Source: a virus. From it: DNA of 64,000 nucleotides. A program made the position numbers and the translations under genes. The stretch's first letter is position 1; each line of letters begins with the position of its first letter. The notes under the pieces were generated by a model. The model ran no database searches. It saw nothing but the letters and a program-made list of their open reading frames with translations, and was not told where the DNA came from. Positions 6,116 through 62,347 of this stretch are shown piece by piece. The stretch is taken from positions 1-64,000 of IMG/VR virus record IMGVR_UViG_3300025881_000010, one strand, 5' to 3'.

Positions 6116-6370
6116 ATGAAAACACCATTTTTAGACGAAATGATAAAGGAATTAGGTGGCTATGAAGGAGCTGACCAATCCTACTTATCAAAAACAGGAA
6201 AACAAAAACTTAAGGAGTTTGAAGCAATAAAAGAGCAATTGGAGTTAACCGCAGTTGTGCAGGCGAAGCCAGAAAAAGATGTGTTCGAAAAGCTACATTC
6301 TTATGAAGGACCGATACCATACGGAAAATGCTACAAATGTGGTAAAGAAAAATGGGAACACGACTTTTGA
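6116..6370 (+). CDS. hypothetical protein with C-terminal CxxC, 84 aa
   Basis: Unrecognised. The body is helical and charged; the C-terminus ends in YGKCYKCGKEKWEHDF, a CxxC with a nearby His that may be half of a zinc site. It is the first gene of the accessory zone and is followed immediately by the first long palindromic element. A short stretch before it (GGGCGTTT, near 6079) recalls the start of the direct repeat found at 6498 and 8011. Confidence 0.55.
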   Translation: MKTPFLDEMIKELGGYEGADQSYLSKTGKQKLKEFEAIKEQLELTAVVQAKPEKDVFEKLHSYEGPIPYGKCYKCGKEKWEHDF

Positions 6371-6485
6371 GCAGTTTTAAGCAAACGCCACATCTTATAA
6401 TCATTTGCGTACTGATCGGTTCTGTCAGATGTAGTTTTAAACCACGTTGCTTAAAATTGTGCCCAACTACGCAGTATAACCGCAG
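6371..6485 (+). repeat. palindromic intergenic element A
   Basis: First of four related elements (A, C, D, E). It starts one base after the stop of the 84-aa gene. A perfect 10-bp arm TTTTAAGCAA (6375-6384) pairs with TTGCTTAAAA (6447-6456), and ACATCT pairs with AGATGT further in. Shared with the other copies are GCAGTT at the left edge, GCAAACG (6381-6387), a central GATCGG, and AACTACGC (6465-6472) then TATAAC at the right edge. It could be a structured RNA, a terminator or a recombination site. Confidence 0.75.
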
Positions 6486-6497
6486 TAAAAAAAATAG

Positions 6498-6542
6498 GGC
6501 GTGGCTTTGAAAAAGCCAAATGAGTATGAGTGAGTATTAACC
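6498..6542 (+). repeat. 45-bp direct repeat, left copy
   Basis: Begins GGCGTGGCTTTGAAAAAG and runs to GAGTATTAAC. It is almost identical to 8011-8055 (one mismatch in the first 34 bases, small changes after that). It contains a small hairpin, GGCTT/AAGCC. The two copies flank the three-gene module between them in the same orientation. Confidence 0.8.
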
Positions 6543-6556
6543 TAAAAATAGAAATA

Positions 6557-6853
6557 ATGAAGAAAATATTTAAATATGAATTGAGCATTAAGGAAAAACA
6601 AGAAATTGAATTACCGTTAAATGCTGAAATTATTAGAGTTGATGATGTTGAAGGTAGGTTTTTCCTGTGGGCAATGGTTGATGTACAGATTGAAAGCGAA
6701 CCAGAAGTAGAATTTGAAAAAAGATTCCTTGAATTTTATAAGACTGGACAACCAATTAAAACTCCAAGTGAAAACTTAAAATATATTGGTTTTTGTAAAT
6801 TATTTATTATGCAGGAATTAGGATTATATGTATTTGAAAATATATCAAAATGA
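6557..6853 (+). CDS. DUF7352-like protein, 98 aa
   Basis: The pattern of an N-terminal KKIFKYEL, then a leucine/proline-rich strand with ALPLNAEIIRV-like spacing, then FFLWAMVD and a glycine turn (YKTGQPI) matches the small family I know as DUF7352, common in phages and their hosts. Function is unknown. The ATG at 6557 is chosen over an in-frame GTG at 6530. The last codon overlaps the next gene (ATGA). It is the first gene of the repeat-flanked module. Confidence 0.65.
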   Translation: MKKIFKYELSIKEKQEIELPLNAEIIRVDDVEGRFFLWAMVDVQIESEPEVEFEKRFLEFYKTGQPIKTPSENLKYIGFCKLFIMQELGLYVFENISK

Positions 6854-7482
6854 AATACGGAACACTACCAAAGTATATAGGTCAACACGAAATTATATGT
6901 GATGAAATGCTATTTTATCAATATTTGCCTATTAAACTAAAAGATGGAATTGAGCCAATAATGGAAGAAAGGTTAAAGCCTTTTAAAGATTTGGTTGGAA
7001 ATATATGTTGTGATTTCGTTGGAGAATTTGGACTTGATCGTTTTATTAATAGCTATGTTTACTTAACTGCTAAGAAAATGTATCAAATGCCGGGATGCTC
7101 TTTTAATAGAGAAGGATATCATTCAGATGGATTTATGACTGATGATATAAATTATGTATGGTGCGATAAAAACCCAACTATCTTTAACTTTTCTCCTTTT
7201 AATCTAACTTTGGATGATAAAGTTTCTATGAAAGAAATGGAAGAACAAGCTAATCCAGAAGCTATTGAAATATACCCTGAAAATAGTTTATTACGATTAG
7301 ATCAGTTTCAAATTCATAAAGTTTCCGAAATCACAAAGTTAGTTCTAAGGACTTTTATTAAAGTTTCTTTTAGCTCAGATGTTTATGATTTAAAAGGTAA
7401 TTCAAAAAACTATCTTATCGATTATGATTGGGAAATGAGGGATCGTTCTATTACCAGAAATATTCCACAAAAAATAAACTAA
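6850..7482 (+). CDS. 2-oxoglutarate/Fe(II) oxygenase-like protein
   Basis: 210 aa. The double-stranded beta-helix signature of 2OG-Fe(II) dioxygenases is visible: H91-x-D93 in GYHSDGF, a distal H156 in FQIHKV and R167 in VLRTFIKVSF, in the right order and spacing for two His, one Asp and an Arg that binds 2-oxoglutarate. Such phage enzymes can hydroxylate nucleic acids, proteins or small molecules; the substrate cannot be read here. It is translationally coupled to the DUF7352 gene by an ATGA overlap. Confidence 0.6.
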   Translation: MKYGTLPKYIGQHEIICDEMLFYQYLPIKLKDGIEPIMEERLKPFKDLVGNICCDFVGEFGLDRFINSYVYLTAKKMYQMPGCSFNREGYHSDGFMTDDINYVWCDKNPTIFNFSPFNLTLDDKVSMKEMEEQANPEAIEIYPENSLLRLDQFQIHKVSEITKLVLRTFIKVSFSSDVYDLKGNSKNYLIDYDWEMRDRSITRNIPQKIN

Positions 7483-7494
7483 AAAACAAACAAA

Positions 7495-8007
7495 ATGAAA
7501 AACCTAACCTTAACACTATTATTAATTTTACCATTATCACTAGCAGCTCAATCGGATGTTTACGCCTCTTTTGAGTTTGATCCAAACAAAGCATTTAGTA
7601 TTATTGATAATCCCAGAACCGAAATGGATCACAACGGATTAGACTTTGATTTTGAAATTGGAGCAAGAGGAAATAAAATAGGAATGTATATTTTTTACGG
7701 TCGCTTCGAGAATGCTAACTATCAAAATTACGGTGTAGGATTAGATTACTATCTTGCAAAAGGTTATCGCTATGATATTGGAGTAGGTGCAAACATTCAC
7801 AATATAATGAGGCATCAAACAATTGGAAATGCATCTAACATGGCTTGGGCAACTTATTTAGGTTGGTCGGTTCGTAGTAGATATACTTATTGGATATTAC
7901 CTAAAATTGGAGTATCCGGAGTAATTCAATATACTAGAAGACCTGATATTAATGTAGGTGGAATAGTAGAGGGTAGAGTTGGAGTTGTGGTTAAAGTGGG
8001 GCGGTAG
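7495..8007 (+). CDS. secreted outer-membrane beta-barrel protein
   Basis: 170 aa with a clear N-terminal signal peptide (MKNLTLTLLLILPLSLAAQS, cut probably after AAQ or before Q as is usual in Bacteroidota). The rest alternates aromatic and polar residues with glycine turns (GVGLDYYLAKGYRYDIGVGA) and ends in a barrel-like strand (VGVVVKVGR). This predicts a small, perhaps 8-stranded, barrel in the host outer membrane. A phage-borne barrel may mask or replace a receptor (superinfection exclusion), but that is inference. It closes the repeat-flanked module. Confidence 0.7.
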   Translation: MKNLTLTLLLILPLSLAAQSDVYASFEFDPNKAFSIIDNPRTEMDHNGLDFDFEIGARGNKIGMYIFYGRFENANYQNYGVGLDYYLAKGYRYDIGVGANIHNIMRHQTIGNASNMAWATYLGWSVRSRYTYWILPKIGVSGVIQYTRRPDINVGGIVEGRVGVVVKVGR

Positions 8008-8010
8008 GAT

Positions 8011-8055
8011 GGCGTGGCTTTGAAAAATCCAAATGAGTATGAGTAAGAATACTAA
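8011..8055 (+). repeat. 45-bp direct repeat, right copy
   Basis: Starts four bases after the barrel-protein stop and is nearly identical to 6498-6542; the hairpin arm changes from AAGCC to AATCC. The two copies define a module of about 1.5 kb (DUF7352, oxygenase-like, barrel) that could have entered or could leave by recombination between the repeats. Confidence 0.8.
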
Positions 8056-8072
8056 CAATTAAAATAATAATT

Positions 8073-8564
8073 ATGAAATTAATATCAATGACAGACTTTG
8101 TAGAGAAAATCAGGAAAGAATCAAATGTTTCTCCATTTAATGATGAACAAAAAGAAATGGATAATGCTGAATTATATAAGATATTTAATTATGCTCATTT
8201 CCTAAAACAACCACTAAAACTTGAAATGTTTGTGCCATGTGATGAGAAAGGTAATGTTTTGGAAAAGCCTAAGGATTATCAAAAATATATTAAACATAAT
8301 TTTTACGCTTCTAAAGTTTGTAAAACCTATCAAGAAGCCAAAGAAAAAGTGTTGTTTGAAAGTTTTGAAATTGACCTTGAAGAAGGGTGTGGATTTCCTT
8401 TTTTAAATAATCACCCACCTTTTTTCTTTTCAATAGACAATAAATGGGATATTTCTTCTTGTTTTAAAATAATAGAAGATTTGGAAGGCTATAATATTCA
8501 ATTAACAAATACAGCACTAAAACAATTAGGACTTGAAACAAGTATGAACGTCAGCGCCATTTAA
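8073..8564 (+). CDS. hypothetical protein, 163 aa
   Basis: Unrecognised cytoplasmic protein. The middle is lysine-rich and the part around 108-130 is rich in Phe and Pro (GFPFLNNHPPFFFS). No signal peptide or membrane helix. It lies between the right direct repeat and palindrome C, so it is laid out as one gene per unit. Confidence 0.6.
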   Translation: MKLISMTDFVEKIRKESNVSPFNDEQKEMDNAELYKIFNYAHFLKQPLKLEMFVPCDEKGNVLEKPKDYQKYIKHNFYASKVCKTYQEAKEKVLFESFEIDLEEGCGFPFLNNHPPFFFSIDNKWDISSCFKIIEDLEGYNIQLTNTALKQLGLETSMNVSAI

Positions 8565-8570
8565 AAAATT

Positions 8571-8705
8571 GCGGTTATGCGCAGTTGGCTACTTTGTTTT
8601 GCAAACGTATCTCGTTAATACTTAAAGCGTACAGATCGGCTTATTTTCGGATTACGATTAACACAATGCAAAATATTGTTGCCAACTACGCTGTATAAGA
8701 GCAGA
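8571..8705 (+). repeat. palindromic intergenic element C
   Basis: Begins 7 nt after the stop of the 163-aa gene. The left arm GCGCAGTTGGCTAC (8579 on) pairs with the right arm TTGCCAACTACGC (8679-8691), and the stem continues through TTTTGCA/TGCAAAA. It shares GCAAACG, GCGTACAGATCGG, TTCGGATTA and AACTACGC with elements A and E. Total span is about 120-135 nt. Confidence 0.8.
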
Positions 8706-8748
8706 GCCTTTTAAAAACTAACAAAATTAAAAACTATAAACATTAACA

Positions 8749-8764
8749 GCTTCTTGATTGAAGC
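8749..8764 (+). promoter_or_regulatory. leader hairpin before the 76-aa gene
   Basis: GCTTC pairs with GAAGC around a 6-nt loop, ending exactly 15 nt before the ATG at 8780. The same hairpin, at the same distance from the start, precedes the gene at 9224. It may act on translation or mark the 5' edge of each unit. Confidence 0.5.
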
Positions 8765-8779
8765 CCTAAAATTAAAATT

Positions 8780-9010
8780 ATGACTGAATTTAAAGATTAC
8801 TTAGTAGAATGTAACAATCCTAAATCCTTCGATGAAACTATACAACAACTTGGAAAAGCTGTGTTACATCAAAATCACAAAGGTGAATATGAAAAACACG
8901 AAGGTTATTATTTGATGAGAATAATAGGAGATCCTGGTTATGTAAAATTTGCTATACAAAATCAAGGATATGGTAGAATTATAAAAGAAGCTGAAACGCC
9001 AAATTCTTAA
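8780..9010 (+). CDS. hypothetical protein, 76 aa
   Basis: Unrecognised small cytoplasmic protein rich in Gly, Tyr and Lys. It sits alone between element C with its leader hairpin and element D, in the one-gene-per-unit layout of this zone. Confidence 0.55.
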   Translation: MTEFKDYLVECNNPKSFDETIQQLGKAVLHQNHKGEYEKHEGYYLMRIIGDPGYVKFAIQNQGYGRIIKEAETPNS

Positions 9011-9029
9011 AAAACGGAATCTAAGCTTT

Positions 9030-9145
9030 GCTCTTATACGCAGTTCTTTACAGTTGTGGTGTACGCTAAAAATCTTAAGACAAATGTGCTATGGTGCGTT
9101 AGACTCATTCAGCACCACTATTGTATAGAACTACGCGGGTTAACA
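9030..9145 (+). repeat. palindromic intergenic element D
   Basis: The left arm CGCAGTTCTTTACA (9039-9052) pairs with TGTATAGAACTACGCG (9123-9138), and GTGGTG (9056-9061) pairs with CACCAC (9113-9118). The edges keep the family signature (CTTATACGCAGTT on the left, AACTACGC then GTTAAC on the right), but the centre differs from A, C and E. Stem bases thus change on both sides while pairing is kept. Confidence 0.75.
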
Positions 9146-9193
9146 AATGAGCCTTTGAAACGAAATTACCTTATTGAAAACGAATTATAAACC

Positions 9194-9208
9194 GCTTCTT
9201 ATTGGAGC
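9194..9208 (+). promoter_or_regulatory. leader hairpin before the 67-aa gene
   Basis: GCTTC pairs with GGAGC (one G-U wobble) around a 5-nt loop and ends 15 nt before the ATG at 9224, the same distance as the related hairpin at 8749-8764. Confidence 0.45.
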
Positions 9209-9223
9209 AGAAAAAATCATAAT

Positions 9224-9427
9224 ATGGATATTTTAATACAAATGAAAAAACAATCTTTAAAGAATTATGAAAAAGATTTAGAGAAGAATCTAGGAGAATT
9301 TTATGATGCTTGTGAAGATAATGATGAAGAAAAAATGCTGAAAGTTGCTAAAAAAGGAGCAGGTATAAAAATGATGATTGATTATTTAAAAAAAGATCTT
9401 AAAGAAGCGGAAAACTCTAATTATTAG
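9224..9427 (+). CDS. hypothetical coiled-coil protein, 67 aa
   Basis: Unrecognised. Almost entirely helical, rich in Lys, Glu and Asp with heptad-like leucines and methionines, so probably a small coiled coil. It is the last plus-strand gene before the switch to the minus-strand virion block. Confidence 0.55.
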   Translation: MDILIQMKKQSLKNYEKDLEKNLGEFYDACEDNDEEKMLKVAKKGAGIKMMIDYLKKDLKEAENSNY

Positions 9428-9448
9428 AAATTTATACGAGCTTTTTTG

Positions 9449-9574
9449 TTAACCGCAGTTCTTGCCAGTTTTTTGCAAACGTATTATTCTGAATATCTCC
9501 CGCGCACAAATCGGTTATTATTCGGATAAGTTGGATCTTAAAGCAAAATATTGGCTGGAACTCGGAATAAGCGC
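9449..9574 (+). repeat. palindromic intergenic element E
   Basis: The left arm CAGTTCTTGCCAG...TTTTGC (9455-9475) pairs with GCAAAATATTGGCTGGAACTC's complement run at 9543-9563. It shares GCAAACGTAT, GCGCACAAATCGG and TTCGGATAA with elements A and C. It is followed by the strong terminator at 9613. Confidence 0.8.
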
Positions 9575-62203: not shown

Positions 62204-62254
62204 TAAGTCAAGTATTGGGTTAATTGTCAAGTTATATCATTGCAAACATAATAA

Positions 62255-62347
62255 ATTGTAGCCTAAGTCAGGCTACATTTATTCAAAAATTGTAGCCTAA
62301 GTCAGGCTACATTCTAAGGTACGTTGTAGCCTAAGTCAGGCTACATT
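62255..62347. repeat. three 34-bp iterons
   Basis: Copies at 62255-62279, 62289-62313 and 62323-62347, exactly 34 bp apart. Each holds the perfect palindrome TGTAGCCT-AAGTC-AGGCTACA flanked by a T-rich base. The gaps are 9 nt and differ. Three helical turns of about 11.3 bp per period place them on nearly one face. They lie directly upstream of the RepL-like gene. Confidence 0.9.

Follow-up and report, generated by a model that had tools for sequence, protein, structure and literature searches.

The window analysed here, a stretch of 64,000 nucleotides from a virus (IMG/VR record IMGVR_UViG_3300025881_000010, positions 1 to 64,000), contains between 6.0 and 9.6 kb short genes alternating with four palindromes, designated A, C, D and E (Table 1). 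All four are present where an initial annotation had placed them, as elements that might be a cassette recombination site, a structured RNA family or a mobile hairpin. Compared with 200 shuffles, their folding energies give z=-3.2 for C, z=-3.3 for E, z=-2.3 for D and z=-1.2 for A, and no Rfam family matched in the window. Over a 21-position stem, C and E each form 18 pairs and D forms 19, counts that shuffling of the right arm equals in at most 6 of 100,000 trials. The long stems with differing arms and preserved pairing described for the family are thus borne out for C, E and D (18-19/21 pairs), but not for A, which is a weak hairpin because its left arm has lost ~10 nt (GCAGTT-TTAAGC, compared with ATTGTGCCCAACT).

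Table 1. Palindromic sites, candidate cassettes and their genes in the window (the arrow marks the junction at the AAC core).
Feature	Position	Strand	Details
Site A, degraded palindrome	6371..6467	+	right arm ATTG-TGCCC-AAC; junction AAC↓TACGC at 6467/6468
Cassette 1	6468..8686	+	outer arm ATAACCGCA (6476-6484), four genes, outer arm TGCGGTTAT (8570-8578), hairpin C
Cassette 1 gene, DUF7352	6557-6853		
Cassette 1 gene, phrog_1843	6850-7482		
Cassette 1 gene	7495-8007		
Cassette 1 gene, phrog_12560	8073-8564		
Site C, hairpin	8583..8687	+	stem AGTTGGCTACTTTGTTTTGCA / TGCAAAATATTGTTGCCAACT; junction 8686/8687
Site C loop	within 8583..8687	+	conserved GCAAACG and GCGTACAGATCGG
Cassette 2	8687..9131	+	outer arm GTATAAGAGC (8693-8702), outer arm GCTCTTATAC (9030-9039), hairpin D
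Cassette 2 gene	8780-9010		76 aa, no family
Site D, hairpin	9042..9132	+	register as in the others; inner stem differs: GTGGTGT / GCACCAC
Cassette 3	9132..9561	+	outer arm GGTTAACAAA (9138-9147), outer arm TTTGTTAACC (9445-9454), hairpin E
Cassette 3 gene	9224-9427		67 aa, no family
Site E, hairpin	9457..9562	+	array end AAC↓TCGGAATAAGCGC, resembling the prophage site AAC↓TCGAGATAAGAGG

The sites share a common anatomy, in which a short spacer separates a 21-position stem (AGTT-N5-C(A)GT ... ATTG-N5-AACT) from an outer arm around TATAA. Within the stem, invariant AGTT/AACT precede five variable positions and a C-A-G-T box opposite A-T-T-G that includes a G.T pair; beyond this box lie one mismatch and seven variable positions. 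Together with two copies from outside the window, in genome G315 and viral contig L093, sites C, E and D have 18-20 of the 21 stem positions paired, with compensatory changes at positions 5, 6, 7, 9, 15, 17, 18, 19 and 20. The inner arms are site-specific, scoring 8.0 of 9 with their own partner and 4.0 in cross-comparison (0/100,000 permutations). The centre said to be kept in A, C and E (GCAAACG and the second loop motif of Table 1) is indeed common to them and to the G315 copy, and is kept weakly in D; the edge reported for E requires correction, as its terminus reads AACTCGGAATAAG and not AACTACGC.

The outermost edges pair best across the gene between two palindromes, not within one palindrome, a feature absent from the initial annotation. 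The right arm of A complements the left arm of C, the right arm of C complements the left arm of D, and the right arm of D complements the left arm of E, so that each gene unit is enclosed by complementary edges. For each of 15 cassettes, taken from the window, the G315 prophage, the relative of that prophage, the Freya phages and further viral contigs, this pairing was scored between the 22 nt that follow AAC↓ and the 22 nt that precede the next GTT within the cassette. The mean score is 10.0 within a cassette and 5.2 for mismatched cassettes; the observed sum was reached in 0 of 100,000 permutations, and the result also holds without the window's own cassettes. In integron cassettes, both ends of one cassette make up one recombination site, and neighbours swap ends. 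Because the ends of one cassette form one site, cassette-wise pairing of outer arms is the signature expected of integron cassettes. A role of the complementary outer arms as transposon ends was considered and rejected, since the Freya breakpoints place the exchange point inside them, at AAC↓.

Other repeats were observed alongside the array. A 40-nt repeat, GGCGTGGCTTTGAAAAAGCCAAATGAGTATGAG, lies ahead of two cassette 1 genes (6498-6537 and 8011-8050) and is possibly a shared leader or promoter; the similar GGGCGTGGTTTTGTCAAAAACCAAAT is present in a Freya array. An in-frame motif, V(M/V)QA(K/Q)PEK, encoded by the conserved DNA GCAGTT(A/G)TGCAGGCGAAGCC(C/A)GAAAA, occurs inside small genes of different phages (window 6253-6281; contig L096, ~2310-2345 and ~2700-2730). 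Far downstream, at 62253-62347 of the window, a small perfect hairpin, AAATTGTAGCCTAAGTCAGGCTACATT, is present as three 34-nt units in tandem.

A covariance model built from C and E only recovers D (E=2e-6) and A (E=3e-6) and otherwise nothing convincing in the window. Among 400 Flavobacteriaceae genomes, it yields one strong copy, in G315 (65 bits, E=9e-11); weak matches in G090, G119, G135 and G341 (E 0.03-0.08) were judged to be chance. Further copies with covariation had been suggested as a check: the copies found do covary, but the covariance model finds few, because the short boxes alone are conserved. Exact DNA patterns for the centre and edges, searched in viral contigs and 84,980 species genomes, gave chance matches that do not fold like the element, except for the G315 copy, and two Flavobacterium phage loci (L071 and L072) contain no convincing copy. 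A general scan for GTT..AAC hairpins with a short loop limit is not discriminating genome-wide, since the loops of many true sites are as long as a gene. Searches of viral contigs gave no protein relatives for two window cassette genes or for the large protein next to them; for the gene at 8073-8564, blastn detects relatives in Flavobacterium phages and tblastn in Riemerella and other phages. No close relative of the window phage turned up in the collections searched, so that neither gain nor loss of a cassette was observed in this phage itself. In contig L096 (IMGVR_UViG_2890863339_000001), at 287-2960, other intergenic palindromes lie densely between small, partly paralogous genes; their arms end in an ATTG...AAC-like manner, and they probably belong to the same superfamily.

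The G315 copy lies inside a prophage and follows a gene of 59 aa whose outer arms are complementary; in L093, a near-identical phage contig, another gene, by its sequence a putative MT-A70-like methyltransferase, occupies this locus. The two share a left context (..CCCC(A/G)AAGATAAC↓, with the junction GATAAC↓) and a right context (TATTGCACCTAAC↓TCGAGATAAGAGGAG, beginning ↓TCGAG), between which the stem arm AGTTAGGTG is the one common stretch. Both copies have AGGTG/CACCT at five variable stem positions despite their different genes and inner stems, and this sharing counts against a purely cassette-borne site, which does not predict it. Past the end of the prophage array in contig L077, the reverse strand at ~1450-1510 reads AAC↓TCGAG-ATAAGAGGA...TCCTCTTAT-TTGGT-GTT, the order of a small classical attC.

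Turnover of such arrays is visible in related marine phages, the Polaribacter phages Freya_8, 9 and 10, reached through a short DNA match, to which Freya_1, 2, 5 and 6 were added. Freya_8, 9 and 10 are near identical but for clean insertions: Freya_10 and Freya_9 differ by 307 bp between ACCAAC↓ and ↓ACCCCTATAAC, and Freya_10 and Freya_8 by 902 bp between TTTACAAC↓ and TTACATGTATAAGG. Within two common flanks, Freya_1, 2, 5, 6, 8, 9 and 10 contain nested arrays of 0, 842, 1744, 2216, 4040, 4635 and 4942 bp, respectively. All breakpoints are AAC↓, the array lies directly 5' of a gene for a compact Xer-like tyrosine recombinase, and the differing unit adjoins this gene, with one exception, an internal loss in Freya_8. 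The junctions beside the integrase are internal to the records of Freya_5, 6, 9 and 10; those of Freya_1 (empty array), Freya_2 and the Freya_8 loss depend on circle closure, because they are located at record ends. Several circular Freya records (MT732463-MT732472) start exactly at an AAC↓ junction, where the assemblies may have broken because arrays varied within the sample. The anatomy of the Freya sites is that of the window, with ATTG-N5-AAC↓, a 5-6 nt spacer and TATAA..., and an inverted copy inside each unit; one hairpin carries GCGTACAGATTGGG in its loop. Cassettes that differ as whole units, with breakpoints in the core site, were thus found both among the Freya isolates and between G315 and L093. 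The original description of Freya reports one integrase and genomes of 44.0-48.9 kb, and its main text makes no mention of integrons, cassettes or insertions (PMC8776804).

The Freya integrase (PF00589, 271 aa) is nearest to XerA/XerC-like structures, and its relatives of 264-269 aa are encoded in viral contigs L128, L130 and L132 and genomes G291, G356 and G130. Against the integron integrase model TIGR02249, with a cut-off of 265 bits, the Freya recombinase scores 96.5 and that of G291 scores 123.6, and both lack the insertion between the catalytic R and HxxR that is IntI's own. The R-to-H distance in IntI1 is ~131; in the recombinases beside homologous arrays it is 84-89, as in Xer proteins. 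An attI-like site, TTTACAAC↓ACCCCTATAAC, places AAC↓ 46 nt before the integrase ATG in Freya, where the candidate attI sequence reads TTTATTGTTTACAAC↓ACCCCTATAACAACAATAAG. The pattern AAC↓N3-7-TATA/CTAA occurs 36-52 nt before the start codon in 7/7 compact integrases, that is Freya and six further ones, compared with 13/199 other ORFs, where the pattern was widened to admit CTAA for the sake of one of the seven, and L128 and L132 are related. Paired GTT..AAC arms lie further upstream of the integrase in L128, L130 and L132. In Danklef_1 (L114 7361-7492) and Danklef_5 (L115 8352-8483), the integrase gene lacks its N-terminal half and the neighbouring array layout is identical, while arrays vary in Freya, where the gene is intact. 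The 82.5-kb record from which the window derives contains no PF00589 tyrosine recombinase, so its array would be of a kind without an integrase.

The edge triplets of the window palindromes do read GTT...AAC, the reverse of the classical order, as previously noted. A classical attC has the order AAC-X..X'-GTT with the gene outside, and in ordinary integron cassettes the GTT...AAC arc holds the gene. The sites of the window, G315 and L093 instead have the gene enclosed by the outer arms, X and X', and a GTT..AAC arc of only ~50-65 nt, which forms a 60-nt loop in the window; the triplets look reversed because the gene fills the loop between the outer arms and the arc is a short hairpin. Freya units 2 and 3 and the sites of Polaribacter phage P12002L are classical-attC-like on the recombining geometry. 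The AAC/GTT cores are invariant, and the full consensus RYYYAAC/GTTRRRY fits A, G315, L093 and L130, but not C, D and E.

Judged from their sequences, the window palindromes are very probably recombination sites of an integron-like gene-cassette system of Flavobacteriaceae phages. Among the options raised initially, the cassette recombination site is favoured by the cassette-specific flanks, the exchange of genes at one locus, the insertions and deletions at AAC↓ in Freya and the adjacent recombinase with attI-like sites. Each cassette would contain two inverted copies of one site (box ATTG-N5-AAC, ~6 nt spacer, outer box around TATAA). The stems and non-identical spacers suggest that the sites fold as single-stranded DNA, which would give an attC-like structure marked by the stems GTT..AAC and X..X'. 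A compact tyrosine recombinase would then exchange one strand at the AAC core, acting on either two cassettes or a cassette site and the attI-like site that immediately precedes the recombinase gene, and cassettes would thereby be inserted, lost or replaced. Neighbours would swap the sequence beyond AAC↓, because of which the outer arms would match across the gene and not across the palindrome. The spacers differ between sites (ACCCC, GTATTT, TTACAT, TACGCA). Ordinary two-strand exchange needs an identical overlap and is therefore unlikely here; single-strand exchange, as in integrons, would be the natural reading. The window array would consist of cassettes without their own recombinase, inside-out relative to ordinary integron cassettes with the gene between X and X', and we infer that the window phage either uses a recombinase supplied in trans or once had its own and lost it. 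We lean towards a further step, by a modest preference, in which these systems would form a phage integron class of their own, with a compact non-IntI Xer-type recombinase, attI just upstream, arrays turning over within one phage species, and an inside-out subclass that includes the window.

The weightiest alternative is that these are ordinary divergent attC sites of classical IntI integrons, in a cluster without integrase (CALIN), with nothing beyond the phage CALINs already known. Phage attC clusters, including one attC site active with IntI1 in P12002L, have been described (Qi et al. 2023, PMC9892861), and the ATTGTTGCTAAC box of Freya unit 4 recurs in the intergenic regions of P12002L, which places the family at the border of true attC sites; the four sites that fit RYYYAAC/GTTRRRY also agree with this alternative. 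We nevertheless regard it as unlikely, though with appreciable weight, because RYYYAAC does not describe C, D and E, the gene occupies the loop other than that of the short GTT..AAC hairpin, and the recombinases beside homologous arrays have Xer-like spacing and scores far below the IntI cut-off.

The remaining explanations are much less probable. Structured RNAs between phage genes, such as terminators or processing hairpins, would have covarying arms through selection on the RNA stem and could account for long covarying stems placed after genes and for the apical GCGTACAGATCGG conserved in A, C, E and G315; this is very unlikely, as no Rfam family matches and as it leaves unexplained the pairing of outer arms across a gene up to 2.1 kb apart, the AAC↓ indels beside a recombinase and the replacement of genes at one locus. 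Mosaic exchange between phages through homologous recombination at conserved boxes, in which template-switch correction of quasi-palindromes would maintain the likeness of the arms, is slightly harder still to credit: it would account for the AGGTG/CACCT stem shared by G315 and L093, but three common bases (AAC) are far too short, and the breakpoints are exact and adjoin an integrase. MITE-like hairpins, which a transposase would move as terminal inverted repeats and between whose insertions genes would only happen to sit, fit the inverted ends, the repeated copies and the insertion after genes, yet the arms differ strongly between copies, constant target duplications are absent, copies are very rare in the 400 host genomes, and the unit that moves in Freya is gene plus site, not a hairpin alone; we consider this scarcely tenable. 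The structured-RNA and mobile-hairpin options of the initial annotation hence explain less than a cassette site.

If the recombination-site interpretation is correct, these phages possess machinery dedicated to exchanging accessory genes cassette by cassette within the phage population, and the traded genes include DNA methyltransferases and many unknown small genes, plausibly serving counter-defence. It would also reveal a second, non-IntI recombinase lineage with integron-like action, which bears on the origin of integrons from Xer recombinases. The rule ATTG-N5-AAC↓, spacer, TATAA would locate cassette genes of flavobacterial phages, including genes that may escape attC detectors trained on IntI sites, and the Freya isolates would offer a ready experimental system.

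Among known systems, integrons (IntI/attI/attC), including phage CALINs, are similar in having cassettes with imperfect palindromes, two inverted half-site pairs, an unpaired spacer, an AAC/GTT core and insertion beside the recombinase gene at an attI-like site; the differing spacers would imply one-strand exchange in both. The systems described here depart from them in the compact Xer-like recombinase (264-271 aa) beside the homologous arrays, whose score falls well short of the IntI cut-off, in genes that face towards the recombinase and, in the window, in the position of the gene between the outer arms, in a GTT..AAC arc with a short conserved loop inside it and in a partial match to the R-box consensus. 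In the open-access literature searched, we found no report of a Freya-type recombinase with array or of the inside-out arrangement. The pdif/dif modules of Acinetobacter plasmids also place gene modules between inversely oriented Xer-type sites; these are described as near-identical 28-bp dif sites served by host XerCD (PMC13141974, PMC12907356), whereas the arms here vary and form long hairpins, with a phage recombinase beside the homologous arrays. REP elements are likewise short intergenic palindromes, but are described as repeats 20-40 bp long and high in copy number (PMC3733652), while the present elements measure 90-110 bp, have variable arms and are tied to cassette exchange.
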